The notes below the pieces were generated by a model that was not told where the DNA came from, ran no database searches, and saw nothing but the letters and a program-made list of their open reading frames with translations. From the NCBI GenBank assembly GCA_009835005.1, contig WTFG01000009.1, positions 1 through 64,000 on the forward strand: DNA of 64,000 nucleotides, in the 5' to 3' direction. The stretch comes from Flavobacteriaceae bacterium Ap0902. Its GTDB lineage: Bacteria > Bacteroidota > Bacteroidia > Flavobacteriales > Weeksellaceae. Positions 1,955-26,863 of this stretch are shown here, piece by piece. A program made the translations under genes and the position numbers. The number at the start of each line of letters is the position of its first letter. The first letter of the stretch is position 1.

Positions 1955-3024
1955 ATGTAACCAAAACCTTTCTTCCTCATATAGAGGAATACGTAAAATA
2001 CTTACAAAAAGCATATGATAAGGCATGGTTGACCAATCGTGGAGAACTTGTATATGAGTTAGAGGCAAAACTAAAAGAATATCTGGTAGTTAAAAATTTG
2101 ACTTTAACCACCAACGGTACATTACCATTACAAATTGCTATCAAAGCGTTGAATTTAAAAAATGAGATTATTACCACACCATTTAGCTATGTTGCTACTA
2201 CATCCTCTATTGTGTGGGAAAGCTGCAGTCCTATTTTTGTAGATATAGAATCAGAATATCTAACCATTGATCCAAATAAAATAGAAAAAGCCATTACGGA
2301 CAAGACATCAGCCATACTTGCCACTCATGTTTTTGGAAATCCATGTGATGTAGAAGCCATAGAAAATATAGCCAAAAGACATAACTTGAAAGTAATATAT
2401 GACGCGGCTCATTGTTTCGCCGTTAAGTATAATGGTGAAAGTATTTTTAATTACGGTGATATAAGCACGTGTTCCTTCCATGCTACAAAAATCTTCCATA
2501 CGGGCGAAGGTGGCTGTTTAATTACCAAAAATGATGAACTACACAAGCGTTTATTTTATCAGCATAACTTCGGTCATAAAACACCTACTAGTTTTCACGA
2601 TGCGGGCATCAATGCAAAAATGAGCGAACTACAAGCGGCTATAGGATTAGCCGTATTTGATCATATAGATGAAATCTTAGAGAATAGAAAAAACATCATA
2701 GCAACGTATAATAAGTTTTTACATGGGCAAGACATTCAATTATTGAAGATTCGCAACAATACAGAATGGAACTATCATTATTATCCTGTCATCTTTAAGA
2801 GTAAGGAGGAATTACTACGCGTACAGAATGCATTGAATAATCATAACATATATCCAAGACGATATTTCTACCCATCATTGAATACACTAGATTATGTTGT
2901 ATATAAACCAATGCCAATATCTGAATCTATTGCAAAGAGAATTTTATGCTTACCTTTGTTCACAGAAATGAATACGGATCAAATAAAAAATATTACGGAT
3001 ATTCTTCTAGAAAATTTATCTTAA
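1951..3024 (+). CDS. vioA: VioA-like DegT/DnrJ/EryC1/StrS sugar aminotransferase (copy 1)
   Basis: A 357-residue PLP-dependent sugar aminotransferase of the DegT family. The opening (NVTKTFLPH..., WLTNRGELV) is the VioA type, which aminates C4 of dTDP-4-keto-6-deoxyglucose to give dTDP-Qui4N. The catalytic lysine is in SFHATKIFHTGEGG and the PLP-binding aspartate in VIYDAAHC. A very close paralog is encoded at 25164-26243. Unlike that copy, this one has no adjacent acetyltransferase and is followed by an ATP-grasp/SDR fusion, so the amino group may receive a different acyl substituent (inference). The next gene starts within the TAATG at its stop. The exact substrate is not provable from sequence. 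Confidence 0.82.
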   Translation: MNVTKTFLPHIEEYVKYLQKAYDKAWLTNRGELVYELEAKLKEYLVVKNLTLTTNGTLPLQIAIKALNLKNEIITTPFSYVATTSSIVWESCSPIFVDIESEYLTIDPNKIEKAITDKTSAILATHVFGNPCDVEAIENIAKRHNLKVIYDAAHCFAVKYNGESIFNYGDISTCSFHATKIFHTGEGGCLITKNDELHKRLFYQHNFGHKTPTSFHDAGINAKMSELQAAIGLAVFDHIDEILENRKNIIATYNKFLHGQDIQLLKIRNNTEWNYHYYPVIFKSKEELLRVQNALNNHNIYPRRYFYPSLNTLDYVVYKPMPISESIAKRILCLPLFTEMNTDQIKNITDILLENLS

Positions 3025-6681: not shown

Positions 6682-7554
6682 ATGAAAGGAATCATACTAG
6701 CAGGAGGATCAGGGACGAGATTACATCCTTTAACATTAGCCGTATCCAAACAGTTACTACCGATATATGATAAACCCATGATATATTATCCTTTATCAGT
6801 TCTCATGCTATCGGGGATTCAAGAAGTATTGATCATTTCTACACCACATGATTTACCAAACTTCAAGAAATTATTAGGCGATGGTAGTCAACTAGGGGTT
6901 AGACTAGAATATGCAGAACAACCCTCACCAGATGGGCTCGCGCAAGCCTTTGTAATTGGTGAGAAATTTATTGGCGATGATGATGTATGCCTTGTTCTTG
7001 GTGACAACATATTCTATGGTGCAGGACTAAGTGAAAAACTTAAATCTGCAGTAAAACTAGTGAAAAACGAAAAATCTGCTGTCATCTTTGGGTACAATGT
7101 TCATGATCCAGAAAGATACGGTGTTGCAGATTTTGATGAAAATGGAGATGTCCTAAGTATAGAGGAAAAACCAGAAAATCCTAAATCTAATTACGCTGTG
7201 GTAGGGTTATATTATTATCCTAATTCAGTTGTAGAAATAGCCAAAAATGTAAAGCCGTCTCATCGTGGCGAGCTGGAAATCACTTCTGTGAATCAAGCAT
7301 ACTTGAATTTAAAAGAGTTAAAATTACAGAAACTAGGTAGAGGGTTTGCTTGGCTAGATACAGGAACCCACGAGTCTTTGGTAGAAGCCACGGAGTTTGT
7401 GAAGGCCGTTGAAAACAGAACGGGTCTTAAAATTGCTGCATTAGAAGAAATTGCATATAAATTAGGGTATATATCTAAGCAAGAATTAATATCATCTGCA
7501 GAAGCGCTAAAGAAAAGTACTTATGGACAATATCTATTGAAACTAGTTAAGTAA
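6682..7554 (+). CDS. rmlA: Glucose-1-phosphate thymidylyltransferase
   Basis: A 290-residue RmlA/RfbA, the usual length for the short family. It makes dTDP-glucose from glucose-1-phosphate and dTTP. The signature [11 protein letters not shown] lies at the N-terminus, followed by DKPMIYYPL and the metal/phosphate site in [18 protein letters not shown] near the C-terminus is also conserved. It heads module 2, whose later genes all act on dTDP sugars. The next pathway enzyme, dTDP-glucose 4,6-dehydratase (RmlB), is not in the window and must be encoded elsewhere. Confidence 0.96.
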
Positions 7555-7556
7555 TA

Positions 7557-7967
7557 ATGAGCAAGCCAAAAATAATTGAACTCCCTAAAATTATAGATAA
7601 AAGAGGGAATTTATCGTTCTTTGAACACCCAAATTATTTACCATTTGAAATCGCTAGAACCTACTGGATATATGATGTCCCTGGAGGTGAAAAGCGAGGC
7701 AGTCATGCTTTTAAGGAGCAACAAGAATTTATAGTTGCACTTTCAGGAAGTTTTGATGTTATTTTAAACGATGGCAAGCAAGATTTAAAATATTCTCTCA
7801 ACAGATCCTACTACGGACTTTATGTTCCTAAAATGATATGGAGAAGTATAGAAAACTTCTCAACGAATGCATTGGCCTTGATCGTTTCAGATAAAGCCTT
7901 TACAGAAAATGATTATATTAGATATTTTGAAGATTTTATAAAATTGAAGAGTGAGCAAAGCGTATAA
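7557..7967 (+). CDS. FdtA/QdtA-like sugar 3,4-ketoisomerase homolog, one active-site His replaced (WxcM-like cupin)
   Basis: A 136-residue single-domain cupin of the WxcM/FdtA family. Enzymes of this family shift the keto group of dTDP-4-keto-6-deoxyglucose from C4 to C3. The core YDVPGGEKRGSHAF retains His50, but the second His of the family HxH motif is Phe52. The adjacent paralog keeps both histidines. This copy may therefore be a non-catalytic or altered partner, perhaps in a heterodimer, or act on another epimer. It starts 2 bases after rmlA and overlaps the next gene by 17 bases. Confidence 0.85.
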   Translation: MSKPKIIELPKIIDKRGNLSFFEHPNYLPFEIARTYWIYDVPGGEKRGSHAFKEQQEFIVALSGSFDVILNDGKQDLKYSLNRSYYGLYVPKMIWRSIENFSTNALALIVSDKAFTENDYIRYFEDFIKLKSEQSV

Positions 7968-8373
7968 AGTTACTGACTGTAAGATTGTTCAATTACCAAT
8001 AGTACACAATCAATCAGGAAACATTACAGTTCTAGAAAATAACTATAATATACCTTTTGATATTAAAAGAGTATATTATCTATACGATGTGCCTATGGGT
8101 AGTGAGCGTGGTGGGCATGCACATTATGAGTTAGAACAATACGTTATTGCAGCAAGTGGATCATTTACATTTGTTCTAGATGATGGGAAAAGTAAAAAAG
8201 AAGTATTTTTAAATCACCCTAATAAAGCCCTACACATTAAACCTGGCATATGGAGAAAGATGAAAGACTTTTCTAGTGGTAGCGTGTGCTTAGTTTTAGC
8301 CTCCCTCCCCTTTAGTGAAGAAGATTACATAAGGGATTATAAAAAATTTATAAGTTACAGAAAGCATGAGTAA
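7951..8373 (+). CDS. fdtA: dTDP-4-keto-6-deoxyhexose 3,4-ketoisomerase, FdtA/QdtA type
   Basis: A 140-residue WxcM-like cupin with a GTG start inside the end of the preceding gene. It has the intact HxH motif (ERGGHAHYE, His56 and His58) and an upstream YLYDVP motif, so it is the likely catalytic ketoisomerase producing the 3-keto sugar that FdtB aminates. FdtA gives the galacto and QdtA the gluco isomer, and the sequence alone does not tell me which. The pair of related genes arose by duplication: both share the PFxIxRxYxxYDVP block. The formyltransferase gene overlaps its 3' end by 8 bases. Confidence 0.88.
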   Translation: MSKAYKVTDCKIVQLPIVHNQSGNITVLENNYNIPFDIKRVYYLYDVPMGSERGGHAHYELEQYVIAASGSFTFVLDDGKSKKEVFLNHPNKALHIKPGIWRKMKDFSSGSVCLVLASLPFSEEDYIRDYKKFISYRKHE

Positions 8374-9571
8374 GACAATCTGTATAGCAGGTAAAAACAA
8401 TATCGCTATTAATATTGCGAAGTACATTGCTTATAAATATCCTGACTATAAATTAATTGCTATTACCAATCAAAATGATTATGGTAATAACAACTTTCAG
8501 TTATCATTCAAACATTATTGTGAGATTAATGATATAGAAGTAGTATCGCTATATGAAGTCTATGAGATAGAAAATCTTTATTTTATTTCTTTAGAATTTG
8601 ATAAAATAATTAAACCTTCTAGGTTCAAATCCAAGGAATTATTTAATATTCATTTTTCTTACTTACCAGCATATAAAGGAATGTACACATCTGCTTTGCC
8701 TATTCTAAATAATGAAGAATATAGTGGCGTGACTTTACATTTGATAGACACAGGAATTGATACTGGAGACATCATCGATCAAGAAAAATTTAAACTTAAT
8801 CCCAGTTGGACTGGTCAAGATTTATACTTAAAATATATAGAGTACGGAACTAGAATCGTTAAGAAAAATTTAGAAAATATACTTACGGGTAAGTATGATG
8901 TAAAAGTCCAATCTCACGTGAAATCAAGTTATTATGACAAGAATTCGATTGACTATGCGAACCTAACAATAAATATCAATAAAACTGCCAATGAAGTGCA
9001 TAATCAGATTAGAGCGTTTTCATTTCCCGCTTACCAATTGCCATTGATCAAAGATTCAGAAATATACAACTCCATTATACTTACCAGCAAGACAGTAGCA
9101 AAGCCAGGTAATATACTTTTTGAAGATGAATTTTCCATTACCATTAGCACGATAGATTTTGATTTAAAATTATTAAAGGATAAAAGATCGGAGTTATTAG
9201 AAGCCAGTAAAAAGGGGGACTTAAAACTGATAAAGAAATTTCACGCCAACCTTTACCCTCTTAACCAAAGAAGCAAGGAAGGGTGGGATATTTTAATTCT
9301 GGCTGCTTATAATGGACACCTAGACATCATCAGGTGGTTGCTAGAAGACGTAGGTTGGGATGTAAACACAACCAATAACAACCTTACAAGTTTCGCTATG
9401 TATGTGATGACACATGCTTCGCTGAATAATGATACATCTATATTAGAATATATATTAAAAAATACAAAAGGCATCCAATGGAATCATAAGGATGCTAGAG
9501 GTCATAATATAAATTATTATGCAAAGAAATTAAATAACATAAACGTAATAAACCTACTCCCATGCCCATAA
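8366..9571 (+). CDS. Sugar N-formyltransferase with C-terminal ankyrin repeats (QdtF-like)
   Basis: 401 residues. The N-terminal formyltransferase domain has the Asn94-x-His96 pair in FNIHFSYLP and Asp132 in IDTGIDTGD, the catalytic triad of N10-formyl-tetrahydrofolate-dependent sugar N-formyltransferases. From about 275 onward lie ankyrin-type repeats ([37 protein letters not shown], then a degenerate repeat). This architecture matches QdtF of Providencia alcalifaciens, where the ankyrin part binds a second dTDP-sugar. With FdtA-like and FdtB-like neighbours the expected reaction is N-formylation of dTDP-3-amino-3,6-dideoxyhexose. The stop overlaps the FdtB start by 10 bases. Confidence 0.88.
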
Positions 9572-10665
9572 AATTCTTGGACCTACAAAAAATTAACCTA
9601 CAGCATCAAGTTGAAATTGAGCATAAACTTTTAGAAGTGTTTAGAAGTGGATGGTATCTATTGGGAAAAGAAGTTAAAACTTTTGAAACTAACCTTTCAG
9701 AATATATCGGAACTCAACATGCTATAGGTGTGAGTAATGGTTTAGATGCATTGAGGTTGATTTTGAGAGCCTACATAGAGATAGGTATTATGAAAAAGGG
9801 TGATGAAATCATTGTCCCAGCCAATACTTATATTGCTTCTATTTTAGCCATTTCAGATAATGGGCTCGTTCCTGTGTTGGTAGAACCCAGTATTGAAGAT
9901 TATAATATTGATATTTCTAAAATAGAAGAAAAGATCACTTCTAAGACCAAAGGCATAATGATTGTCCATTTGTACGGGCGTGTTGTTTTCTCTGATGAAC
10001 TTAAAGAAATTTCAGAACGTTATAATTTAAAGATTATTGAAGATAACGCACAAGCTATAGGTGCAAGTTTTAGTGGAACAAAAACTGGCGCGCTGGGGGA
10101 TGCAGCTGGATTTAGTTTTTACCCTGGCAAGAACCTAGGCGCATTAGGAGATGCTGGTGCTGTAACCACAAGCGACTCTAACCTTGCAGAAACAATTAGA
10201 GCCATTGCTAATTACGGGTCTAAAGAGAAATACGTTAATATTTATCAAGGACTAAATTCAAGATTAGATGAAATACAAGCAGCTGTATTAGGAGTTAAGT
10301 TAAAGTATATAGATAAAGAAAATAATCGCAGAAGAGAGATTGCTGAGAAATATATTAAATCTATTAAAAATGAGAAGATCACCTTGCCTTCCATCCCATT
10401 AGATATGAAAGAACATGTTTGGCATGTTTTCGTGATTAGAACAAAACAAAGAAAAGAATTGCAAGAATATTTAGAAAAAAACAATGTTCAAACATTAATT
10501 CACTATCCTATTCCTCCACACAAGCAAAAAGCATATCCAGAATTACAAGATTTCAGTTTACCTATTACAGAGACAATACATCGGGAAGTTTTAAGTTTAC
10601 CAATTAGTCCTGTAATGACGGATAACGAAGTAGACGAGATAATCGAGTATTTGAATAAATTTTAA
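9562..10665 (+). CDS. fdtB: dTDP-3-keto-6-deoxyhexose C3 aminotransferase, FdtB/QdtB type
   Basis: A 367-residue DegT/DnrJ/EryC1 aminotransferase. The opening [17 protein letters not shown] and [10 protein letters not shown] are of the FdtB/QdtB class, and the PLP lysine lies in [15 protein letters not shown]. The aspartate-containing block is [13 protein letters not shown]. It should convert the 3-keto product of FdtA into dTDP-3-amino-3,6-dideoxyhexose, which the preceding formyltransferase then formylates. Whether the product is Fuc3N or Qui3N cannot be fixed from sequence. It is followed after 3 bases by a flippase. Confidence 0.9.
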
Positions 10666-12349: not shown

Positions 12350-13537
12350 ATGAATATGCTGAACCTTATTGGCAGAGAGCAAGAATTATTTTTATCCGAT
12401 ATTCAAGCACATGAGCAAGAACTTAAGAAGATAGTCTCTAAATCTAATTTTCTAGTGATTGGTGGTGCTGGTTCAATTGGGCAAGCGGTGACGAAAGAGA
12501 TTTTTAAGAGAAATCCTAAAAAGTTGCATGTTGTAGATATTAGCGAGAATAATTTAGTGGAACTCGTGAGAGATCTTAGAAGTTCTTTCGGCTATATTTC
12601 TGGAGAATTCAAAACATTTGCGTTAGATTGTGGTTCTACAATTTATGATGCATTTATCAAATCTGATGGACAATATGATTATGTATTAAACCTTTCTGCC
12701 CTGAAGCATGTACGTAGTGAAAAGGATCCTTTTACTTTAATGCGGATGATTGAAGTAAATATTTTTAATACAGACAAAACCATACAACAGTCCATAGCCA
12801 ATAAAACCTCTAAATATTTTTGCGTGTCTACCGATAAGGCAGCCAACCCTGTGAATATGATGGGAGCCTCTAAACGTATAATGGAAATGTTCCTCATGCG
12901 TCGCAGTGAAGATATTGATATCTCAACTGCCCGATTTGCGAATGTTGCGTTTTCTGATGGTTCTTTATTGCACGGTTTTAATCAGAGGATTCAAAAAAGG
13001 CAACCTATTGTGGCACCTAGCGATATCAAAAGATACTTTGTAATTCCTAAAGAAGCGGGAGAGTTATGCCTGATGTCTACTATTTTTGGGGAAACTAGAG
13101 ATATATTCTTTCCTAAACTAAGCGAACAGCTTCATTTAATCACTTTTGCTGAAATTGCCGAAAAGTATTTAAGACAAATTGGTTATGAACCCCATCTTGT
13201 AGCAACTGAAGATGAAGCAAGATCTAGCGTCGATTCTTTAGCCAAGAATAAAAAATGGCCATGCCTTTTTGTGAAAAGTGATACTACAGGCGAGAAAGAC
13301 TTTGAAGAATTTTTCACAGAGAGTGAAACGTTAGACATGAAGCGTTTTGATAATTTAGGCATCATCAAAAATGATCTAAATATTGAGTATGATAAATTAA
13401 AGATGTTCGAAGACAAAATTAATTCTATCAAAGAAACAGGCGTTTGGGAAAAAGAGGAAATCGTTACCCTATTTAATGAAATGATTCCTAACTTTAACCA
13501 CAAAGAAACAGGTAAATATCTTGATTCAAAAATGTAA
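12350..13537 (+). CDS. legB: UDP/GDP-N-acetylglucosamine 4,6-dehydratase, LegB type (CapD/FlaA1 family)
   Basis: A 395-residue soluble extended SDR of the polysaccharide-biosynthesis CapD family. Its Rossmann loop is VIGGAGSIGQ. The family blocks SALKHVRSEKDPF and STDKAANPVNMMGASKR are present, the latter with the Met-x3-Lys form usual in this family. Residues from 290 onward form a C-terminal substrate domain. It catalyses 4,6-dehydration to the 4-keto-6-deoxy sugar, the first committed step of legionaminic acid synthesis. In Campylobacter the substrate is a GDP-sugar, and the PtmE-like gene downstream favours that route here. It is the first gene of module 3, one base before legC. Confidence 0.87.
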   Translation: MNMLNLIGREQELFLSDIQAHEQELKKIVSKSNFLVIGGAGSIGQAVTKEIFKRNPKKLHVVDISENNLVELVRDLRSSFGYISGEFKTFALDCGSTIYDAFIKSDGQYDYVLNLSALKHVRSEKDPFTLMRMIEVNIFNTDKTIQQSIANKTSKYFCVSTDKAANPVNMMGASKRIMEMFLMRRSEDIDISTARFANVAFSDGSLLHGFNQRIQKRQPIVAPSDIKRYFVIPKEAGELCLMSTIFGETRDIFFPKLSEQLHLITFAEIAEKYLRQIGYEPHLVATEDEARSSVDSLAKNKKWPCLFVKSDTTGEKDFEEFFTESETLDMKRFDNLGIIKNDLNIEYDKLKMFEDKINSIKETGVWEKEEIVTLFNEMIPNFNHKETGKYLDSKM

Positions 13538-13538
13538 T

Positions 13539-14687
13539 ATGGCACAATTTCAAGACACCATAGATTTTATAAAATCTACCTTTAACACCCAAGAATTCAT
13601 ACCACTACATGCCCCCTATTTTGGTGGTAATGAAAAGAAATACTTGAATGAATGTATAGATTCTACGTTTGTATCTTCTGTGGGAGCCTTTGTGGATCAA
13701 TTTGAGAAAGAGTTGGCTTCCTATACGGGTGCTAAATATGCAGTGGCTTGCGTAAACGGAACCAATGCTTTGCATATAGCCATGCTTATTGCTGGCGTAA
13801 AACCACAAGAAGAAGTGATTACGCAGGCACTTACCTTTATTGCTACCACCAATGCTATTTCATATATTGGGGCAAAACCCATCTTCATAGATGTTGATAA
13901 AGAAACGTTAGGATTGTCGGCCAAAGCACTAGAGAATTTTTTAAATAAGAATGCCGAGAAGAAAGCAGATGGCTATACGTATAACAAATCTACAGGTAAA
14001 AGAATAGCCGCTTGTGTTCCTATGCATACTTTTGGATTCCCTGTCGAGATTGATAAAATTATTGCTATATGTGATGAATGGAATATTCCAGTCGTTGAAG
14101 ACGCTGCAGAATCCCTAGGTAGTTCTTTTAAAGGAAAGCATACAGGAAACTTTGGGCAAACAGCCGTTTTCAGTTTTAATGGGAACAAGACCATTACAAG
14201 TGGTGGCGGTGGAGCCATTATCACCAACGATGAACATCTTGCGAAAAGAGCAAAGCATCTAACTACCCAAGCAAAAATTCCGCATAAATGGGAATTCCGT
14301 CATGATGAAATTGGCTATAATTATAGAATGCCTAACATCAATGCTGCCTTGGCTTGTGCTCAACTTGAACAGTTAGATACAATCTTAGAAGGTAAAAGAA
14401 AATTAGCCAACAAATACACTGAATTCTTCAAAGACAAAAACATTAAATACATTACCGAACCTGAAAACTCAACCTCTAATTACTGGCTAAATGCAGTGCT
14501 TTTAGAAAATCGAGAACAAAGAGATTTATTTTTAAAAGAAACCAATGAGAACGGTGTGATGACAAGACCTATTTGGGATCTTATGTCTACCCTACCGATG
14601 TTTAAAGACTGCCAAAATGATGGCTTAAAAAATAGTCAATGGCTAGAAGAAAGAGTAGTTAATATACCAAGTAGTTATATAAAATGA
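13539..14687 (+). CDS. legC: LegC-family 4-keto-6-deoxysugar aminotransferase
   Basis: 382 residues from the ATG at 13539, which lies one base after the legB stop. An upstream TTG at 13521 would overlap legB and is less likely. This DegT-family PLP enzyme has the LegC opening (FIPLHAPYFGGNEKKYL) and the PLP lysine in SFNGNKTITSGGGG. The aspartate block is VVEDAAESLGSSFKGK. It puts an amino group on C4 of the LegB product. Its stop overlaps the GNAT gene start by 4 bases. This tract is clearly less AT-rich than the cassette that follows. Confidence 0.9.
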   Translation: MAQFQDTIDFIKSTFNTQEFIPLHAPYFGGNEKKYLNECIDSTFVSSVGAFVDQFEKELASYTGAKYAVACVNGTNALHIAMLIAGVKPQEEVITQALTFIATTNAISYIGAKPIFIDVDKETLGLSAKALENFLNKNAEKKADGYTYNKSTGKRIAACVPMHTFGFPVEIDKIIAICDEWNIPVVEDAAESLGSSFKGKHTGNFGQTAVFSFNGNKTITSGGGGAIITNDEHLAKRAKHLTTQAKIPHKWEFRHDEIGYNYRMPNINAALACAQLEQLDTILEGKRKLANKYTEFFKDKNIKYITEPENSTSNYWLNAVLLENREQRDLFLKETNENGVMTRPIWDLMSTLPMFKDCQNDGLKNSQWLEERVVNIPSSYIK

Positions 14688-15145
14688 TGGAGATATCTAA
14701 TTTTTATTATCAACCAGAAGATTTTGAATCATTTAAAAACTTTATTCTTAAAACTGAAAAAGAATTCAACCCTCCCATAAGTGATAGAGTAAATATTGAC
14801 GAATACATAAATAAACTAACAAATGAGGCTGTAATTATATTAACAAAAAATAAAAATCATGAAATTATAGGAACTGCTTGTTTTTACTGTAATCCTAAAG
14901 ATTTTGAATATGCGTTTTTAAGTTATATAGCTACAACTTTAAACAATCAAGGTATAGGAAGCCTCCTTGTAAATGATATGATTGCTTATTGTAAAAAATT
15001 AGGCGCAAAAGGAATTGAAACACAAACCTGGGAGAACAACAATAATTCTTTAAAATTATTTAATAAGTTCAATTTTGAAATAGTTGGTAAAAAATCAAAT
15101 CGTTCTACTGAGACAAATAGTATTATTTTAAGATTAATATTTTGA
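14684..15145 (+). CDS. GNAT-family N-acetyltransferase
   Basis: A 153-residue single GNAT domain. The acetyl-CoA loop is in LNNQGIGSLLVNDMIAYCKK (Q/RxxGxG/A type) and the C-terminal motif B region in LKLFNKFNFEIVG. In this position it could be LegH, which acetylates the 4-amino group of the LegC product. No other LegH candidate lies in this operon. It may instead belong functionally to the next three genes. It overlaps both neighbours by 4 bases. Two in-frame ATGs (14684 and 14687) are equally possible starts. Confidence 0.8.
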   Translation: MMEISNFYYQPEDFESFKNFILKTEKEFNPPISDRVNIDEYINKLTNEAVIILTKNKNHEIIGTACFYCNPKDFEYAFLSYIATTLNNQGIGSLLVNDMIAYCKKLGAKGIETQTWENNNNSLKLFNKFNFEIVGKKSNRSTETNSIILRLIF

Positions 15146-15969
15146 AAATACAGAAAATAAATTCATCTCTAATTTTAGATGAAAACCTCAACAATAGTTT
15201 TATTTCAGGTAATAAGTATAGAAAAGTTAAAGCTATTATTGAAGATGAAAAAGAGACTATTCAAGGTATAATTTCATTTGGGTCCAAATACTCAAGTCAT
15301 ATTTTAGCCTGTGCATGGTGGTCTAAGTTATTAGAAATCCCTTTTATAGGAGTTATTATTGATAATAATGACATAATTCTTGATAATTATCCTCACCTTA
15401 AAATGAGTAGGAATTTTGGGGCAAATTTGATTAAAACAAAAAGTGATATAGCATATTCTACTATTGAGAACTGGAAAGGAAGTTATCCTAACTACAAATG
15501 GATACCAGGTGGAGCGCACACACTTGAGGCTGCTAGATCTTATGAAAATTTGTTTGACGAGATAATCGATGAAGGATTATTAAAAGAAATAAAGAAAATA
15601 ATACTACCCTACGGTACGGGAACAACGGCGTATGGTATTTGGAAATCTATTATTAAACATAATTTGGATATAGAAGTAATTGGAGTTTCTGTATCAAGAG
15701 ATAAAAAACATTGCTTTGAGGCGATTAAAGGTCTTGAGAATATTAATTTTTTTAAAAATCTAAAAGTTATAGACACATTCTCAAACAAATATGACTATAC
15801 AGATTCTATAATAGAAGGTTACAGATGGAGGTTTTTTAATGAAACAGGTATTTTGCCAGACCCTATATACAATAGCAAGGTTATCTACCATTATTACGAG
15901 AATAAGATGAAAGATACGCTTATCATTAATACCGGCGGAATGCTGAATAATTTATTAACAAAAATATAG
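15142..15969 (+). CDS. PLP-dependent enzyme of the ACC deaminase/D-cysteine desulfhydrase family
   Basis: 275 residues starting at a TTG that overlaps the GNAT stop. No earlier or nearby ATG fits. The GNKYRK motif (Lys25) corresponds to the PLP-lysine motif GNKxRK of this fold-type II family. LPYGTGTTAYG corresponds to the Gly/Thr-rich loop that holds the PLP phosphate. Known members cleave ACC or D-cysteine or racemise small amino acids. The protein is shorter at the N-terminus than typical members (about 325-340 residues). Such an enzyme is not part of any nonulosonate pathway I know. It may make an unusual amino acid used by the next two genes (inference). Confidence 0.75.
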   Translation: MKIQKINSSLILDENLNNSFISGNKYRKVKAIIEDEKETIQGIISFGSKYSSHILACAWWSKLLEIPFIGVIIDNNDIILDNYPHLKMSRNFGANLIKTKSDIAYSTIENWKGSYPNYKWIPGGAHTLEAARSYENLFDEIIDEGLLKEIKKIILPYGTGTTAYGIWKSIIKHNLDIEVIGVSVSRDKKHCFEAIKGLENINFFKNLKVIDTFSNKYDYTDSIIEGYRWRFFNETGILPDPIYNSKVIYHYYENKMKDTLIINTGGMLNNLLTKI

Positions 15970-15970
15970 T

Positions 15971-17611
15971 ATGAGTAAAAATTTAGAAGTATTGTTAAGT
16001 GGAAAAGATTTCACTAGATTAGAGGTTTTAGATGATTTATTTATCGTATTTAGTATCAATAAAATTGATAAATTAAAGCTGAAAAAATTATTATTATCAG
16101 ATTTTGACGATGATCTTAAAATAATAAGGAAGATAAGTTTAATCTTTGGTGAGTTTTCATTAATACGTATTTCATTTCATGAAGGTATTCCTAAAAAAAT
16201 AAGTGCATTTAGAAGTATAACATCAAGTTTTGAACTTTTCTATTGCCTAAATGATACGCTATATATTTCTAACTCATTTAAAAATATTCTCTCAAAAAAA
16301 GATATTAGTGAAAGGGAAGTATCAGAAAATGCTTTAATAGATTTATTCTTATATCAAAGAAACTTTAGTCAAGAAACATATTTAAAAAATGTATTTAGAC
16401 TTGGGCATGGAGAATATATCAGCTACATGAATAAAACTGATATTATTAAAAAACAACAAATTGAAAAATTAGAATTAGATAGCGTTTTTAATTTATCTAA
16501 AGAAAGTAGTGTATTATTAGATAACTTATTAGAAACTATATCAACTCAATTAAACAATAACCATAATGCAATTAACACTTTGTCGGGGGGAGTGGACTCG
16601 AGCTTGATACAGAGCTACTTAGATAACAATAAGTCTATAAGTATTGCATATGACTCTCCAGAATTTAAAAATGAAATAGAATATGCGAAAAACGCTTCTA
16701 AATTAATAAATACAGAACATGAGTTTATTAATTTAAAAGAAAAAGATTATTTAACTAATCTTATAGAAGCATCAATTATTTTAGGACAGCCATCACCCGA
16801 CTTACCAAACATTATAATTGCAAACGAATTATCTAAAACCAGTAACAATCACTTTATTACATCAATTTATGCTGACTCAATATTTGGGTTATCACAAATC
16901 AAAAATTTAGTAAAATCTAATTTTAATATTGGAGATCTAATAAATAAATCTGTTAGTGATAAATATGGCTATGCCTCAATGAATTTTGTTATTGCACAAA
17001 AGGATAACCTTGGATATGTGGAAAAAATTTTTGGTAAAGAAAAGATTGATTTTCAGTTAGAAAAAAGATCTACATATATAAATAATCTATTAGTTAATCA
17101 AAAAAACACAAGTATTACAGTTTATGACCATATTGAATTTGGTAGTCTAATAGGGTTTTATACAAACAATCTTTTATCAATATTTAGACAAATTGGAGAC
17201 CATTATAACAAATCATTCTCTTCTCCTTTCTTAGATCAATCCATTTTAAAAACTAGTCTTAAAATCCCATTAGAAGAGAGGTATTATAACACGACTTTTG
17301 GCACGAAACCTATTTTAAAAAAAATATTAAGTAATAGGGTGAAAAGTTATGACATATATAACCCCAAATTAGGCGGGGCTCTTCCTAGAACTAGGTTTTG
17401 CATTGATGGTCCTTTAAAAGACTATTTTAAACGTTTTGAATTTCCGGATTTTATAGATAATTCAATGAAAAAGGAAATATCAAACCCAACATGGGAAAAT
17501 AGTTGGATAGTAAGTTATAGTATATTTTATAGTATTTGGGTAGAGAATGTATTAAAAAATAATACATTGAAGTTAACTAAAGACACTTTAGTTTTAAAAT
17601 GGAAATTTTAA
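15971..17611 (+). CDS. Asparagine synthetase-like amide ligase lacking the glutaminase cysteine
   Basis: 546 residues. The C-terminal half is an AsnB-type synthetase with an intact PP-loop (TLSGGVDSS, Ser205-Ser211) and TTFGTKPILKKIL later. The N-terminal 160 residues resemble an Ntn glutaminase domain in outline (FGEFSLIRI, ELFYCLNDTLYISNSF, FRLGHGEYISY). However, the obligatory Cys2 is absent because the protein begins MSKN. It cannot release ammonia from glutamine in the usual way, so it may join an adenylated carboxylate to another amine, as beta-lactam synthetase and related ligases do. The gene is very AT-rich: the line 16501-16560 has 12 G/C in 60 bases. It lies one base after its upstream neighbour. 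Confidence 0.78.
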   Translation: MSKNLEVLLSGKDFTRLEVLDDLFIVFSINKIDKLKLKKLLLSDFDDDLKIIRKISLIFGEFSLIRISFHEGIPKKISAFRSITSSFELFYCLNDTLYISNSFKNILSKKDISEREVSENALIDLFLYQRNFSQETYLKNVFRLGHGEYISYMNKTDIIKKQQIEKLELDSVFNLSKESSVLLDNLLETISTQLNNNHNAINTLSGGVDSSLIQSYLDNNKSISIAYDSPEFKNEIEYAKNASKLINTEHEFINLKEKDYLTNLIEASIILGQPSPDLPNIIIANELSKTSNNHFITSIYADSIFGLSQIKNLVKSNFNIGDLINKSVSDKYGYASMNFVIAQKDNLGYVEKIFGKEKIDFQLEKRSTYINNLLVNQKNTSITVYDHIEFGSLIGFYTNNLLSIFRQIGDHYNKSFSSPFLDQSILKTSLKIPLEERYYNTTFGTKPILKKILSNRVKSYDIYNPKLGGALPRTRFCIDGPLKDYFKRFEFPDFIDNSMKKEISNPTWENSWIVSYSIFYSIWVENVLKNNTLKLTKDTLVLKWKF

Positions 17612-17622
17612 ATTAATTAAGA

Positions 17623-18564
17623 ATGAATTTACTATTTACAAATGCTGGTAGAAGAACTTACTTAATAGAATATGCCCTAGAATTAAAAAATAGAGGATAT
17701 GACTTAAATATTTTTGTTTGTGATACCTCATACGATACTGCTGCAATGAATGTTGATAGTTCCATAAAGAGATTTATTACCCCTATGGTATCTACAAATG
17801 AAGAAGAATACTTAAATATTCTTTTAGAAGAGTCTTTAAAAAACAGTATAGACATAATTATTCCATTGATGGATTTTGAGTTACCTATTTTATCTAAAAA
17901 CATAACTAAATTTGAGAATCATCAAATTAAAGTCTGGGTATCTAATCATGATACAATTATGAATTGTTTGAACAAAGAACTTAATTATTATTTTTGTTTA
18001 GATAATAATATAAATGTTCCTAAAAGTTATTTTAACAATGATATAACTCCTCCATTAATTAAAAAGAAAATATTTGGAAGTGGTAGTGTTGGGCTTGAAA
18101 TAATAAAAGGCAAATCTCAAAACTACTCTTTTATTCAAGGAGAAGATATGTTACAAGAATTAATTGTAGGTACAGAATATGGAATGGACATCTTCAATGA
18201 TTATAACGGAAACTACATTCATTCTTGTGCAAGAAAAAAAATATTAATGCGTGCAGGTGAAACAGATAAAGCAAGTTCCTTTATAGATCCCACTTTAGAA
18301 AATCTTGCGAAAGAAATATCTTCTGTATTTAAGCATAGAGGAAATATGGATATTGATTTTATAAGAGATCCAGATGGAAACATTTACTTCATTGACTTTA
18401 ACCCTAGATTCGGAGGAGGATATCCTTTCACCCATTTATCTGGGGCTAATTACTTAAAATTCATAATCGATTCTCATCAAAATGGAGAAGCCAAACTCCC
18501 TAAATTTAAAAAATCAATAACAGGGATGAAAGGATTAAAACTATATTACCATGGAAACAAATAA
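17623..18564 (+). CDS. ATP-grasp ligase (carbamoyl-phosphate-synthase-like/PylC-like)
   Basis: A 313-residue ATP-grasp protein. The N-terminal pre-ATP-grasp domain begins MNLLFTNAGRRTYL. The lid and metal site are visible in GSGSVGLEI, FIQGEDMLQELIVGTEYGMDI and FIDFNPRFGGGYPFTH (Asp/Asn/Arg). Such enzymes form an acyl-phosphate and couple it to an amine. It is not closely similar to the ATP-grasp half of the fusion protein at 3024. Its 3' end overlaps legI by 14 bases, placing it firmly inside the nonulosonate operon. Substrates are unknown. Confidence 0.8.
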   Translation: MNLLFTNAGRRTYLIEYALELKNRGYDLNIFVCDTSYDTAAMNVDSSIKRFITPMVSTNEEEYLNILLEESLKNSIDIIIPLMDFELPILSKNITKFENHQIKVWVSNHDTIMNCLNKELNYYFCLDNNINVPKSYFNNDITPPLIKKKIFGSGSVGLEIIKGKSQNYSFIQGEDMLQELIVGTEYGMDIFNDYNGNYIHSCARKKILMRAGETDKASSFIDPTLENLAKEISSVFKHRGNMDIDFIRDPDGNIYFIDFNPRFGGGYPFTHLSGANYLKFIIDSHQNGEAKLPKFKKSITGMKGLKLYYHGNK

Positions 18565-19576
18565 AAATCATACATACATAATTGCAGAAATAGGACCAAA
18601 TCATAATGGTGAAATTCAAAGGGCCTTAGATATGATTGAGCAACTGGCAAGGGTTGGCGTGGATGCAGTTAAGTTTCAGATTACAGTACCAGAGAATGCA
18701 TATTCACTAGATGCCTTTAAGGCAGACTATCAGAAAAAAGAATCCAATTCTGGCGAATCCGCCGTTAACATGTCAAAAAGTTATAAACTTTCTTTTGAAG
18801 ACCATTTTACCTTGTACCAACACTGCCTAGAAAACAAAGTAGATTATCTATGCTCTGCCTTTGAAATGGAAAGCCTGAAATTTATAAATGAAAATTTTAA
18901 TTTACCTTTCTATAAAATACCTTCAGGAGAAATTTTCTCTGTAGACTTAATTGAATACATGGCAAAATATGATAAACCTTTCATACTGTCAACAGGAATG
19001 GCTAGTTATGATGAAATTGAAAAATCAATTGAATTAATCAACTCAAATTTCAAGAAAGACATCACAATATTACATTGTATTAGTAATTATCCAGCCCCTT
19101 ATGAGGATGTGAATTTAAATGTAATGCTTGAACTTAAAAAGCGTTTCGATTACCCTATCGGTTTTTCAGATCATACTATCGGTAATGATGCTTCCATTGC
19201 AGCTGTGGCATTAGGTGCTAGTATAATTGAGAAACATGTAACACAAGATAAATCTCTACCAGGACCAGACCACAAAGCATCTATTACAATAGAAGAATTT
19301 GGAGAACTTGTTAAATCCATTAGAAATGTTGAAAAAATGCTAGGTAGTACAGAAAAAAAACTCTCAGAAGAAGAATTAAAAATTAAAAAAGCTGTAAGAA
19401 AAAGTTTTGTTGCAACTAAGGACTTGCCTTCTGGCCATGTGTTAGAAAAAGAAGATATAACTTTTAAAAGACCAGGGATAGGTATTTCACCGCTAGAAAG
19501 AAATAATTACATAGGCAAAATATTAAAAAAAAGTGTGAAAGAAAATAGAGTGATAAAAAAAGAGGATTTTGAATAA
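18551..19576 (+). CDS. legI: N-acetylneuraminate/legionaminate synthase (NeuB family)
   Basis: A 341-residue NeuB-family enzyme that condenses PEP with a 6-carbon amino sugar to make a 9-carbon nonulosonic acid. The N-terminal TIM barrel shows EIGPNHNGE, ILSTGMASYDEIE, HCISNYPAPYEDVNL, GFSDHTIGND and IEKHVTQDK. The C-terminal SAF (antifreeze-like) domain spans about 285-341. With a NeuC-like epimerase next to it and no PseG homolog, a legionaminate-type product is favoured over pseudaminate. The ATG lies inside the end of the ATP-grasp gene. Confidence 0.92.
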   Translation: METNKNHTYIIAEIGPNHNGEIQRALDMIEQLARVGVDAVKFQITVPENAYSLDAFKADYQKKESNSGESAVNMSKSYKLSFEDHFTLYQHCLENKVDYLCSAFEMESLKFINENFNLPFYKIPSGEIFSVDLIEYMAKYDKPFILSTGMASYDEIEKSIELINSNFKKDITILHCISNYPAPYEDVNLNVMLELKKRFDYPIGFSDHTIGNDASIAAVALGASIIEKHVTQDKSLPGPDHKASITIEEFGELVKSIRNVEKMLGSTEKKLSEEELKIKKAVRKSFVATKDLPSGHVLEKEDITFKRPGIGISPLERNNYIGKILKKSVKENRVIKKEDFE

Positions 19577-20684
19577 AAAAATAAAAATAGCTTTTTTTAC
19601 TGGAGCCAGATCAGAGTATGGCATTTTAAGAAAACTATTATTTGAATTACAAGAAAATTCAAACTTTGAAATCTCTTTAATAGTTGGTGGTATGCATTTA
19701 TTGGCTAATTATGGAAATACAATTCAAGAAATACGAAAAGATGGTTTTAAAATAGATGCCGAATTAAATTTTTACAGTAATAATGCCGAACCAACATTTG
19801 ACAATTTCACCAAAGCTATTAATATGATTTCAGAGCATCTAACATTAGATAAATATGATGCATTATTTATTGTAGGGGATAGATTAGAGGCATATTCTGC
19901 AGCTTTAGCGGCACACCTCACTAATACTTCTATCATTCACTCAGGGGGTGGTACCCTTACAAAGGGGGCAAATGATAATATTTACAGATATAATATTTCA
20001 AATCTCGCTAATTATCATTTGACAACTTCAAGAGGAAACTATAATAGGTTAATGAAATTACCAATCTTAAAAAAAGAAAATATTTTTTTTACTGGCTCTG
20101 TAGCAATTGACTCAATTAAAAAGTTTCAAATTGAAAATACAAGAAACATTTCAGATTATTTTGAAAATTTAAAGCCAAATAATTTTGTGTTAATTACATA
20201 TCACTCTGCAACTAATTCTGAGGAAAACATCCCTTTAATGTTAAAGACTTCTGTAAATTTCCTACTAGATAATGGAGTAAAAGTATTAATTACATACCCA
20301 AATAATGATACGGGCTCTAAATCTATCATAAAAGAGATTGAATTATTAGAACAAAACCCAAATGTTATTACTTCAAAAAGTTTAGGTGCTTACAAATACT
20401 ATATTGCACTACAAGATTGTATGTTTGTATTAGGTAATAGCAGTAGTGGTATTATAGAAGCCCCTTACTTCAATAAAATGGTTATTAACGTAGGTTCAAG
20501 ACAAGAAGGTAGAGAGAAAGATAATCTCGTTTTAGATGTTCCAGCAGAGAGACAGAATGTTGAAGATGCAATAATAAAGTTAATCAATAATAAACAAAAT
20601 AATTCTTTGCCAGAAAATATTTATGGCAGTGGTGACTCCATTTCTAAAGTAATTAAGGTTTTATTAATGTTAAAGAACAAATAA
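19569..20684 (+). CDS. legG: Hydrolysing 2-epimerase, LegG/NeuC type
   Basis: 371 residues starting at a TTG that overlaps the legI stop by 8 bases. The next in-frame Met is at residue 42, too late. NeuC/LegG enzymes remove the nucleotide and invert C2 to give the free 2,4-diamino sugar used by LegI. Visible family features are FFTGARSEYGILRKLL, IVGGMHLL, FIVGDRLEAYSAALAAH, and LGNSSSGIIEAPYF near the C-terminus. The gene is AT-rich, like the four-gene cassette upstream. Confidence 0.9.
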   Translation: MNKKIKIAFFTGARSEYGILRKLLFELQENSNFEISLIVGGMHLLANYGNTIQEIRKDGFKIDAELNFYSNNAEPTFDNFTKAINMISEHLTLDKYDALFIVGDRLEAYSAALAAHLTNTSIIHSGGGTLTKGANDNIYRYNISNLANYHLTTSRGNYNRLMKLPILKKENIFFTGSVAIDSIKKFQIENTRNISDYFENLKPNNFVLITYHSATNSEENIPLMLKTSVNFLLDNGVKVLITYPNNDTGSKSIIKEIELLEQNPNVITSKSLGAYKYYIALQDCMFVLGNSSSGIIEAPYFNKMVINVGSRQEGREKDNLVLDVPAERQNVEDAIIKLINNKQNNSLPENIYGSGDSISKVIKVLLMLKNK

Positions 20685-20715: not shown

Positions 20716-21759
20716 ATGCTTGATAAACATATTATACAATCGAATAAAACAGTAAGAGACGCTTTAATAAAGTTAGATAAATTAGCGTCAAATGCCATCT
20801 TGTTTCTTGTAGATATAAATAATAGTTTAATTGGATCTCTAACAGATGGTGATTTAAGACGAGGATTTATTAAAGGGCTAGATTTTGATAGCAACCTATT
20901 AGAGTTCATCCAACCAAATCCAAAATACTTATTTGAAAATGAGTATGATCAGGATAAGTTAGCGTCTTTAAAGAAAAATAAATTTAAGATTATACCAATA
21001 CTTAATAGAGATTATCAGATTATTGATATCTTAAACTTCGATTACAAATCAACTATAATCCCTGCTGACGCAGTTATCATGGCTGGTGGAAAAGGGACTA
21101 GACTTAGACCTCTTACCAACGAAACCCCTAAGCCATTATTGAAAGTCGGAGACAAACCTATCATCGAATATAACATTGATAGATTAGCCAGAGTTGGTAT
21201 CAAAAATATTCATATTAGTATTAACTACCTTGGAGAACAGTTAGAAGATTATTTTGGAAATGGCTCGCATAAGAAATTAAACATATCCTACCTTAGAGAA
21301 GACAAGCCACTAGGTACGATAGGTTCTATTCATTTAGCTAATGAATTTACACATGATGACATATTGGTGATGAACAGTGACTTATTAACCAATATAGACT
21401 TTGCAGATTTCTATAATTCGTTTATTAATTCTGGGGCAGACATGGCTGTTGCTGCGACATCCTATAATGTAGATGTACCCTACGCTGTATTAGAAACTGA
21501 CGTAAATCAAAAGGTAAAATCATTAAAAGAAAAACCAAGATATACTTATTACTCTAATGCTGGTATCTATTTAATGAAAAAAGAATTATTGAACATGATA
21601 CCTAAAGATGAGTTCCATGATATAACAGATTTAATGGAGAATGTCCTAGCAATGGATAAAAAACTAATCACCTACCCTATCAATGGTTATTGGCTGGATA
21701 TTGGAAAACCAGAAGACTTTAAAAAAGCACAAGAAGATATTAAACACATAAAACTTTAA
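20716..21759 (+). CDS. ptmE: CBS-domain nucleotidyltransferase, PtmE-like (GlcN-1-phosphate guanylyltransferase type)
   Basis: 347 residues. Residues 1-115 form a CBS pair (SNAILFLVDINNSLIGSLTDGDLRRG). The rest is a sugar-phosphate nucleotidyltransferase with MAGGKGTRLRPLT, ETPKPLLKVGDKPI and DEFHDITDLM. This architecture is that of PtmE in Campylobacter jejuni, which makes GDP-glucosamine for the legionaminate pathway. It suggests the GDP-linked rather than UDP-linked route here. It lies 31 bases after legG, the largest gap in the operon, and 4 bases before legF. The other early-route enzymes (PtmF, PtmA, PgmL) are not in the window. Confidence 0.82.
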   Translation: MLDKHIIQSNKTVRDALIKLDKLASNAILFLVDINNSLIGSLTDGDLRRGFIKGLDFDSNLLEFIQPNPKYLFENEYDQDKLASLKKNKFKIIPILNRDYQIIDILNFDYKSTIIPADAVIMAGGKGTRLRPLTNETPKPLLKVGDKPIIEYNIDRLARVGIKNIHISINYLGEQLEDYFGNGSHKKLNISYLREDKPLGTIGSIHLANEFTHDDILVMNSDLLTNIDFADFYNSFINSGADMAVAATSYNVDVPYAVLETDVNQKVKSLKEKPRYTYYSNAGIYLMKKELLNMIPKDEFHDITDLMENVLAMDKKLITYPINGYWLDIGKPEDFKKAQEDIKHIKL

Positions 21760-21763
21760 ACGG

Positions 21764-22441
21764 ATGTTAGCAATTATTCCAGCAAGAGGTGGATCTAAAG
21801 GTCTTCCCAGAAAAAATATTAAATTATTGAATGGAAAGCCACTAATCGCATACACCATTGAGGCAGCCTTAGCAGCGAAATATATTAACAGAGTTATAGT
21901 TAATACAGATAATGGTGAAATTGGTGAAATTGCATTAAAATTTGGTGCTGAAGTTCCCTTTATGCGGTCAAAAGAATTAGCGAGTGATACTGCCAAATCT
22001 ATTGATGTATTGAAAGATGCGATTGAAAGATTAGAAAAGTCTAGTGATAAAACAATTGAAGAATTTGTAGTCTTACAGCCTACAAGTCCATTACGCGCAG
22101 CACAACATATAGATGGGGCGATAGAACTATTTCAAAAGAAAAAAGCCGACTCTGTAATAAGTTACTGTCAAGAAGAACATCCCATATTCTGGCATAAATA
22201 TTTAGATGAAGAAGGTAAATTTGAGGACATTTTCGGTAAAACCTTACTGCAAAATAGGCAAGAGATTAGACCTTCTTATTACGCAAATGGAGCTATATAT
22301 ATCTTTAATAAAAATTTAATTTATAAAAACACCTATTATACAGAAAATTCTTACGCATACATTATGGACAAGAAATCTTCTATAGACATTGACACTATTG
22401 ATGACTTTGAATATTGTGAGTATTTAATAACCAGAAAATAA
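21764..22441 (+). CDS. legF: CMP-legionaminate/N-acetylneuraminate cytidylyltransferase
   Basis: A 225-residue NeuA/LegF-type enzyme that activates the nonulosonic acid with CTP. The N-terminus IIPARGGSKGLPRKNIK binds the nucleotide. QPTSPLR and the C-terminal SIDIDTIDDFEYCE block are typical. It is the last gene of module 3, and its stop lies 2 bases from the stop of the convergent transferase gene. That transferase is a good candidate user of its CMP-sugar product. Confidence 0.93.
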   Translation: MLAIIPARGGSKGLPRKNIKLLNGKPLIAYTIEAALAAKYINRVIVNTDNGEIGEIALKFGAEVPFMRSKELASDTAKSIDVLKDAIERLEKSSDKTIEEFVVLQPTSPLRAAQHIDGAIELFQKKKADSVISYCQEEHPIFWHKYLDEEGKFEDIFGKTLLQNRQEIRPSYYANGAIYIFNKNLIYKNTYYTENSYAYIMDKKSSIDIDTIDDFEYCEYLITRK

Positions 22442-25163: not shown

Positions 25164-26243
25164 ATGTTAAATGTAACCGAAACATTTCTTCCACCTATGG
25201 AAGAATACACAAAATACCTGCAAAAAGCATTTGATAAAAAATGGCTTACCAATCGGGGGGAATTAGTAGTTGAACTTGAGAATAAATTAAAAAAATATTT
25301 ATCTGTTGAAAATTTGACATTAACTACAAATGGAACATTACCTTTACAATTAGCCATTAAAGCTCTAGATTTAACTGGGGAAATTATAACAACTCCTTTC
25401 AGTTATGTTGCTACTACTTCATCTATTGTTTGGGAAAATTGCAACCCTGTTTTCGTGGATATAGAAGAAAACTTTCTTACGATAGATCCTCAGAAAATTG
25501 AGAAGGCAATTACAGAAAGGACATCGGCAATTTTAGCTACACATGTATTTGGAAATCCATGTGAAATAGAAAAAATACAACAGATTGCGAATAGACATAA
25601 CCTAAAAGTTATATATGATGCCGCACATTGTTTTGGTGTAAAGTATAAGGGAGAATGTGTCTTTAACTATGGTGATGTAAGTACTTGCTCATTCCACGCA
25701 ACTAAAATCTTTCATACAGGAGAAGGTGGATGTTTTATAACAAAAGACAAAGAATTACATGATAAGATTTATTATCATCATAACTTTGGGCATAATGGAT
25801 CAACGAAATTTCATGGCTTAGGAATTAACGGAAAAATGAGTGAATTGCAGGCAGCTCTAGGTTTAGCGGTCTTTGACCACATTGATGAAATTTTAAATAG
25901 GCGTAAAACCGCGGTTGCATATTATAATGAGTTATTACATGATGTTTCATCATTAAAATTAATACAAATAAGACCCGAAACTCAATGGAATTATCACTAT
26001 TACCCTATCGTATGTGACAGTGAAAAAACACTTCTAGCCGTTATGGAAAATTTAAATATAGAAAAGATATTTCCACGACGATACTTTTATCCTTCATTAA
26101 ACACGCTTCCTTATGTACAAGAAAGCACAATGCCTATATCAGAATCTATTTCAAAAAGAACATTATGCTTACCTCTATCGGCTAATTTGGATAGGTCATC
26201 TATTGAACTAATTGCATCGATTATAAATAAAACACAAGTATGA
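25164..26243 (+). CDS. vioA: VioA-like sugar aminotransferase (copy 2)
   Basis: 359 residues, closely similar over the whole length to the enzyme at 1951-3024. The two share long identical blocks such as TTPFSYVATTSSIVWE, LATHVFGNPC and CSFHATKIFHTGEGG (PLP lysine). It should make dTDP-4-amino-4,6-dideoxyglucose. Unlike copy 1 it is directly followed, with a 4-base overlap, by a PglD/VioB-like acetyltransferase, so this copy most likely feeds dTDP-Qui4NAc. It heads the plus-strand module that holds most glycosyltransferases. Confidence 0.87.
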   Translation: MLNVTETFLPPMEEYTKYLQKAFDKKWLTNRGELVVELENKLKKYLSVENLTLTTNGTLPLQLAIKALDLTGEIITTPFSYVATTSSIVWENCNPVFVDIEENFLTIDPQKIEKAITERTSAILATHVFGNPCEIEKIQQIANRHNLKVIYDAAHCFGVKYKGECVFNYGDVSTCSFHATKIFHTGEGGCFITKDKELHDKIYYHHNFGHNGSTKFHGLGINGKMSELQAALGLAVFDHIDEILNRRKTAVAYYNELLHDVSSLKLIQIRPETQWNYHYYPIVCDSEKTLLAVMENLNIEKIFPRRYFYPSLNTLPYVQESTMPISESISKRTLCLPLSANLDRSSIELIASIINKTQV

Positions 26244-26863
26244 TTATAATCGGTGCAGGAGGTTTAGCAAAAGAGGTTTTCCAAATCATATCAGAAAGTT
26301 TGGTGAATAAGGAAATCTATTTTTATGATGACTGGAATATGAATAAAAACTTCTTATACGACCATTACCCTATTATTCACGATGATAATAGTCTTTATCA
26401 ACTTTTGCAAACGCATGAGTACACAATAGCTATTGGAGGAGTACTAAATAGGGTAAACTTTCACAAAAAACTCTCGGCTTTAAATGGCAAAATTGCGTCG
26501 ACCATAAGTAGTAGGGCTTATATCGGATCAAAGAATGTATCAATTGGAGGCGGAAGTAATATTTTTGCAAATGTTATGATTTCCAATGATGTAAAGATTG
26601 GTACAGCTTGTTTAATCTATTATAATGCTGTGATAACCCATGATGTGATTATTGGTGACTTTGTAGAGCTTTCCCCGAACTGCACTCTATTAGGTAATTC
26701 AGAAATTGGGAATTTCACCCACATCGGATCTAACGCCGTAATATTACCTAAAATAAAAGTTGGCAATAATTGCATTATAGGAGCAGGTGCAGTTGTAACA
26801 AAAAATGTTCCAGATAATACAATCGTAGCAGGTGTTCCGGCTAAGAAATTGAAAGAAAGATGA
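26240..26863 (+). CDS. Amino-sugar N-acetyltransferase, left-handed beta-helix (PglD/NeuD/VioB type)
   Basis: 207 residues. An N-terminal Rossmann-like sugar-nucleotide domain opens MIIIGAGGLAKEVFQII. From about 85 hexapeptide repeats form a left-handed beta-helix (IGSKNVSIGGGSNIF, IGAGAVVTKNVPDNTIVAGVPAKKL). His134 in AVITHDVIIG matches the catalytic base position of PglD-like enzymes. Placed between VioA copy 2 and a 4-acetamidosugar transferase, it probably acetylates dTDP-Qui4N using acetyl-CoA. It overlaps both neighbours by 4 bases. Confidence 0.87.
   Translation: MIIIGAGGLAKEVFQIISESLVNKEIYFYDDWNMNKNFLYDHYPIIHDDNSLYQLLQTHEYTIAIGGVLNRVNFHKKLSALNGKIASTISSRAYIGSKNVSIGGGSNIFANVMISNDVKIGTACLIYYNAVITHDVIIGDFVELSPNCTLLGNSEIGNFTHIGSNAVILPKIKVGNNCIIGAGAVVTKNVPDNTIVAGVPAKKLKER

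Follow-up and report, generated by a model that had tools for sequence, protein, structure and literature searches.

A candidate N-acylation cassette between legC and legI in the legionaminate operon of Flavobacteriaceae bacterium Ap0902

Why should a legionaminate operon house, between legC and legI, genes for a GNAT acetyltransferase, a pyridoxal phosphate (PLP) enzyme, a relative of asparagine synthetase B (AsnB) that lacks the N-terminal catalytic cysteine, and an ATP-grasp ligase? The question is posed by the first 64,000 nucleotides of contig WTFG01000009.1 of Flavobacteriaceae bacterium Ap0902 (assembly GCA_009835005.1; positions 1 to 64,000, hereafter the window). The cassette is probably an N-acylation module that replaces the LegH acetylation of legionaminate synthesis, yielding an N-acetyl-aminoacyl amide, and that carries a second amide synthetase in addition. 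The operon comprises the following genes:

12350..13537, +, legB-like sugar-nucleotide 4,6-dehydratase (Pfam Polysacc_synt_2, 4e-43; below the FnlA and PseB cut-offs)
13521..14687, +, legC aminotransferase (NCBIfam LegC TIGR04181, 566.5 bits vs. cut-off 420)
14684..15145, +, GNAT acetyltransferase, proposed to add an N-acetyl cap to the aminoacyl group (PF00583, 2.6e-10)
15142..15969, TTG start, +, diverged fold-type-II PLP enzyme, proposed amino acid supplier (PF00291, PALP, 8.5e-14)
15971..17611, +, Cys-less AsnB / beta-lactam-synthetase-like amide synthetase (PF00733, Asn_synthase)
17623..18564, +, ATP-grasp carboxylate-amine ligase, candidate for the coupling of acyl group and sugar amine (PylC-like_N + ATP-grasp_3)
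18551..19576, +, legI / NeuB-family nonulosonate synthase (Pfam NeuB, 1.5e-85, + SAF; NeuB model 389 bits, just below cut-off 400)
19569..20684, +, legG / NeuC-family hydrolysing 2-epimerase (TIGR03568, 324 bits vs. cut-off 236)
20716..21759, +, ptmE-like nucleotidyltransferase (PF00483, 6e-44, at residues 119-343)
21764..22441, +, legF-like CMP-nonulosonate synthetase (PF02348, CTP_transf_3; PseF model 179 bits, cut-off 206)

By the LegC and LegG/NeuC profile scores, both above their curated cut-offs, this is classified as a legionaminate operon; the ptmE-like gene type was also found in other leg operons. Open reading frame (ORF) coordinates and domain searches agree with the preliminary description of this DNA, which had the four genes tightly packed between legC and legI: from legC to legI, the frames overlap by 4, 4 and 14 bases and are otherwise separated by gaps of 1 and 11 bases. 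The LegH of the NeuD/LbH type that is usual in Bacteroidia leg operons was not found in this slot, which holds the GNAT instead; the window's leg operon has no NeuD of its own, and two other NeuD-type genes lie on contig 3.

To compare the slot of the cassette, 395 Bacteroidia genomes were screened with the LegC model, and 56 of them, the window genome counted, scored above the cut-off; scanning the LegC neighbourhoods of the remaining 55 with small hidden Markov models yielded 28 operons with legI contiguous after legC. The slot holds a NeuD-type acetyltransferase in 17 of these, whereas in five (L079, L110, L112, L113, L122) it holds an ATP-grasp gene, followed by a gene for a HAD-like protein of ~105 amino acids, and no NeuD; it is empty in three, contains a glycosyltransferase-like or unassigned gene in two, and a mixed insert in one (L108). 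All five ATP-grasp operons thus fall among the 10 without NeuD, for which the chance is 252/80730, or ~0.003 (L108 excluded; since the operons are related, this figure is a guide only). With NeuD in 17 operons and an ATP-grasp in its stead in five, the slot appears as a swap site for the N-acylation step, in which an acetyl-CoA-dependent acyltransferase is exchanged for an ATP-dependent ligase. An AsnB-like or PLP gene occupied the slot in none of the 28 compared operons.

The relatives of the individual cassette genes point to aminoacylation of amino sugars. In a maximum-likelihood tree, the window ATP-grasp grouped with aminotransferase-linked ATP-grasps from an E. coli plasmid, from Sphingobium, and from loci L076 and L126 (100/99). 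Three of these loci have related gene orders without any nonulosonate genes: aminotransferase-GNAT-PLP-ATP-grasp on the E. coli IncR plasmid (L032, together with rmlA/rmlB), PLP-GNAT-ATP-grasp-aminotransferase in Sphingobium (L049), and aminotransferase-formyltransferase-PLP-ATP-grasp in a bacteroidote (L076). The combination of PLP enzyme, ATP-grasp and GNAT (or formyltransferase) is a general amino-sugar module that does not require nonulosonate genes. Nucleotide matches to annotated vioA genes mark the plasmid aminotransferase as VioA-like; its O-antigen-like cluster for amino-sugar aminoacylation resides on near-identical, small, transposase-flanked E. coli IncR plasmids in 4/5,426 genomes. 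The formyltransferase in place of the GNAT in the sister module suggests a shared role, the capping of an amino group that presumably belongs to the amino acid. Consistent with this role, comparison of the window GNAT with 3,321 ORFs of 158 loci, not counting its own copies, gave as the closest match the GNAT from the antigen cluster of E. coli O121 (35%, 61 bits), followed by that of the E. coli plasmid module; the PseH-like GNATs of the 158 loci gave no match, and the PseH model itself matched weakly (30 bits). By sequence kinship, the window GNAT therefore fits better as an amino acid cap than as LegH. The clade of the ATP-grasp and the O121 kinship of the GNAT lead to a reading of the cassette as a module for N-acetyl-aminoacylation that has come to occupy the LegH slot. 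The preliminary proposal that the cassette makes and attaches an amino-acid-like acyl group gains from the slot, the ATP-grasp tree and the O121 match, with the qualification that its GNAT/PLP/ATP-grasp part is of a general kind.

The PLP enzyme had been described as ACC (1-aminocyclopropane-1-carboxylate)-deaminase-like; its place in the PALP family (PF00291) holds, but the ACC-deaminase-related model TIGR01275 gave only 31.7 bits against a cut-off of 289.4. The lysine of the GNKxRK motif and the TGG motif are retained, while SNH is changed to SSH and the RDD motif is lost. The module PLP enzymes of L032, L049 and L076 form a clade (100/99), to which the window enzyme attaches insecurely, at 99/96 but on a long branch (3.79). 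A single-sequence AlphaFold2 model reached a mean confidence (pLDDT) of only 36.5 and no usable fold. The possibility that this gene is itself the housekeeping ACC-deaminase paralogue was rejected; a separate gene of that kind lies on contig 1.

The AsnB-like protein, in contrast to canonical AsnB, has the synthetase domain (PF00733) without a glutaminase domain and begins with MSKNLEV instead of Met-Cys; neither this protein nor the aligned members of its family have the N-terminal catalytic cysteine of the glutamine-hydrolysing asparagine synthetase B. Across 17 family sequences, SGG.DS (205-210), E235, K446 and K466 are invariant; K466 lies within PKLG, the setting of the corresponding lysine of beta-lactam synthetase, which was also the best profile match, and the family has a C-terminal motif of its own (KxGGxLPRTRF....GPLKDFF). 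The AlphaFold2 model is confident (pLDDT 89); most of its length aligns structurally with TsnB9 (Z 26.5), beta-lactam synthetase (Z 22.3) and asparagine synthetases (Z 22.2). PP-loop, C-terminal lysine and missing glutaminase cysteine are all as in beta-lactam-synthetase-type enzymes; given this fold, the intact PP-loop and lysine, and the missing cysteine, the protein is expected to adenylate a carboxylate, the acceptor being an amine and not ammonia released from glutamine. The AsnB homologues that neighbour other ATP-grasps were considered as members of the same family and rejected: those of L065, L066, L070 and L143 are canonical AsnBs that, as in O121, start with Met-Cys, and they score 50-89 bits where family members score over 320. 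A further homologue, at L126:2177-3898 (-), belongs to another lineage and has no score for the Cys-less family; it starts with MSGFSG, with Ser for the usual Cys, and its cluster also encodes a VioA-like aminotransferase and an ATP-grasp of the module clade.

The family is rare, and in bacteria its distribution ties it to nonulosonate genes. Among 84,980 species genomes scanned, 13 loci matched; the strong bacterial ones (L036, L037, L038, L040, L041 and L043; E at most 7e-47) make up a set of seven together with the window, and all seven have a NeuB-family gene within ~10 kb. These loci belong to Bacteroidota, Lachnospiraceae and Synergistales; since the four Synergistales loci form one clade, they represent three independent bacterial lineages. 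The two Lachnospiraceae loci (L036, L037) encode a PseG-like protein, a PseH-like GNAT, a glutamate symporter and an amidohydrolase, and L036 also a Maf-like (MptE-like) protein; symporter and amidohydrolase hint at a glutamate-like acyl donor, comparable to the Leg5GluNMe7Ac of Clostridium botulinum. The Synergistales loci (L038, L040, L041, L043) contain several tandem Cys-less AsnB-like genes, with a sixth copy elsewhere in the L041 genome, surrounded by a legI-like/legG region and by legF-like, UDP-sugar dehydrogenase, GNAT, deacetylase and polysialyltransferase-like genes. Near the haloarchaeal members no NeuB was detected, and two of them lie near UDP-sugar dehydrogenases; the Chloroflexi match (L048) is weak. 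Searches of genomes from the phylum (296), the family (197), Lachnospiraceae (200) and Synergistota (81) added no member beyond the central loci, and the family profile found no relatives in the viral contigs scanned. It is possible, though doubtful, that these proteins are a new nonulosonate-specific family of amide synthetases in Bacteroidota, Bacillota and Synergistota in which every copy makes a single amide bond; a sialic-acid-type sugar with a peptide-like chain would then be the product of the up to six copies in Synergistales, and a doubly substituted legionaminate that of the ATP-grasp and AsnB-like ligases from one operon in the window organism.

For the cassette, the substrates, the order of steps and the acylated position that we infer are as follows. 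LegB and LegC would supply the nucleotide-activated 4-amino sugar, as in the standard pathway, and the PLP enzyme an unusual or D-amino acid. The ATP-grasp ligase would activate a carboxylate as an acyl phosphate and transfer it to a sugar amine, most likely the C4 amine that later becomes N7, as slot, phylogeny and precedent suggest; the GNAT would acetylate the amino group of the amino acid to give the N-acetyl-aminoacyl amide, a step suggested by its O121 kinship and by the formyltransferase swap. The AsnB-like protein may adenylate a second carboxylate and couple it, in the manner of beta-lactam synthetase, to an amine not derived from glutamine, and could thereby lengthen or amidate the acyl side chain or acylate the other sugar amine. 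LegG, LegI and LegF would then complete a CMP-legionaminate that carries the acyl group.

The G+C content of the cassette is lower than that of its neighbours. The five lines whose G/C letters had been counted by hand in the preliminary description (12, 16, 12, 25, 21) were exact on recount, and G+C per gene is 0.249 (GNAT), 0.296 (PLP), 0.256 (AsnB-like) and 0.280 (ATP-grasp), as against 0.367 in legC, 0.320 in legI and a window-gene mean of 0.318 (standard deviation 0.029); legG is low as well (0.285), so that the dip is real but not exclusive to the cassette. In keeping with a late acquisition, two genus mates and the rest of the family genomes searched lack the AsnB-like gene.

The window encodes other sugar pathways besides. 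A VioA-like aminotransferase and a NeuD/VioB acetyltransferase (TIGR03570, above cut-off) at 25164-26863 probably serve dTDP-Qui4NAc synthesis; at 6682-10665, inspection by eye shows a set of dTDP-sugar genes, among them an aminotransferase, a formyltransferase bearing an ankyrin-like tail and two small isomerase-like ORFs, which probably serves dTDP-Qui3N-formyl synthesis. At 2946-5033, directly after an aminotransferase gene (1951-3024), an ATP-grasp-like N-terminal half is fused to an SDR epimerase half.

As a caveat, several observations weigh against an N-acylation module in the LegH slot. The window ATP-grasp falls outside the clade (100/100) formed by those of the other leg operons, and the slot argument is thus one by analogy. 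The kinship of the window PLP enzyme with the module enzymes may be a long-branch artefact, and its strong divergence (long branch, SSH, no RDD) makes the predicted chemistry, and even activity, uncertain. The preliminary description had named a PLP/AsnB-like/ATP-grasp trio common in contexts without nonulosonate genes as evidence against its reading; such contexts do occur for PLP, ATP-grasp and GNAT or formyltransferase (L032, L049, L076), which in part speaks against that reading, and neither the complete trio nor the four-gene combination was found a second time in the genomes searched. No PLP or ATP-grasp partner was detected in the Lachnospiraceae and Synergistales loci, so that the AsnB-like protein has an independent role there, which could concern a sugar carboxylate. 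Finally, the GNAT could still conceivably be LegH.

This last point leads to an alternative that is unlikely, in which the GNAT is an ordinary LegH and the nonulosonate di-N-acetylated, while PLP enzyme, AsnB-like protein and ATP-grasp join an amino acid or amine in amide linkage to a carboxylate, either C1 of legionaminate or that of a uronic acid, leaving N5 and N7 untouched. The GNAT gene does follow directly after legC, with weak PseH similarity, yet PseH-like GNATs are much more distant from it than those of O121 and the plasmid module; canonical AsnB homologues do occur in polysaccharide clusters, such as the O121 asnB with its presumed uronamide role, and the Synergistales and two haloarchaeal loci do lie near UDP-sugar dehydrogenases, but the ATP-grasp clade associates with amino-sugar aminotransferases, and in five further leg operons the slot has an ATP-grasp without NeuD. 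It is quite unlikely that the cassette acylates a different amino sugar of the same polysaccharide (for example, a VioA-type Qui4N or a Qui3N from the neighbouring genes) and is merely housed in the leg operon: homologous modules do occur in amino-sugar clusters without nonulosonate genes, and both such sugar pathways are present in the window, but each has its own acyltransferase next to its aminotransferase where the leg operon has no NeuD, the cassette reading frames overlap legC and legI, and the legC-legI interval is the usual N-acylation slot. A decaying or silent insert, with ordinary legionaminate made by an acetyltransferase encoded elsewhere, is very improbable, since the diverged PLP enzyme, low G+C, absence from relatives and two NeuD-type genes on contig 3 are met by four intact, overlapping ORFs, conserved catalytic motifs in the AsnB-like and ATP-grasp proteins, and the confident AsnB-like fold.

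N-acylation in the LegH slot would bear on a gap between structures and genes: amino-acid-bearing nonulosonates are known by structure, and the enzymes that add the amino acid are not named in the literature found. The window locus and the exchange of LegH for an ATP-grasp in other leg operons offer testable candidates, and a rule, that the gene between legC and legI predicts the N-acyl group. The Cys-less AsnB-like family, strikingly expanded in tandem in Synergistales, would be a second, unrecognized class of enzymes that form amides in connection with sialic-acid-like sugars; 'asparagine synthase' was not mentioned among the matches listed for literature on nonulosonic acids and flagellin glycosylation, and neither the gene set nor the AsnB-like family is described in the literature found.

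Among known enzymes, beta-lactam synthetase, carbapenam synthetase, TsnB9 and AsnB share with the window AsnB-like protein the two-domain fold, the SGGxDS PP-loop and the PKLG-like lysine; in missing the glutaminase cysteine it resembles beta-lactam synthetase and not AsnB, and its own C-terminal motif and an identity of 11-16% set it apart from all of them. The E. coli O121 antigen contains N-acetylglycyl-Qui4N (PMC3210612, its ref. 147). The O121 cluster has a VioA-like aminotransferase and the GNAT nearest to that of the window, and differs in its WbqC-family protein, in the absence of ATP-grasp and PLP genes, and in an AsnB that keeps the Met-Cys start; synthesis of its N-acetylglycyl group by an ATP-grasp was rejected, as O121 has WbqC and the GNAT instead. 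The Clostridium difficile type B flagellin locus for a peptidylamido-Fuc3N (CDR20291_0244-0247) likewise combines an aminotransferase, an ATP-grasp and an amino-acid enzyme, with FemAB-like and ornithine-cyclodeaminase-like proteins where the window has the AsnB-like and PLP proteins, and with Fuc3N as the sugar; the aminoacyl amino sugar disappears in mutants of the ATP-grasp gene CDR20291_0245 and of the amino-acid enzyme gene 0246 (PMC5207246, PMC5207245). Closest to the proposed product are Leg5Ac7AcAla of Vibrio vulnificus CMCP6 and Leg5GluNMe7Ac of C. botulinum flagellin (PMC7371886, PMC5207245), legionaminates with an amino-acid-derived acyl group on N7 or N5; unlike for the window, acylation genes, an AsnB-like or a PLP enzyme are not described for them in the papers cited. 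The preliminary expectation of an undescribed nonulosonate variant was thus too strong as chemistry: with both structures published, aminoacyl-legionaminates are not a new product class; it is the genetic variant that is new.

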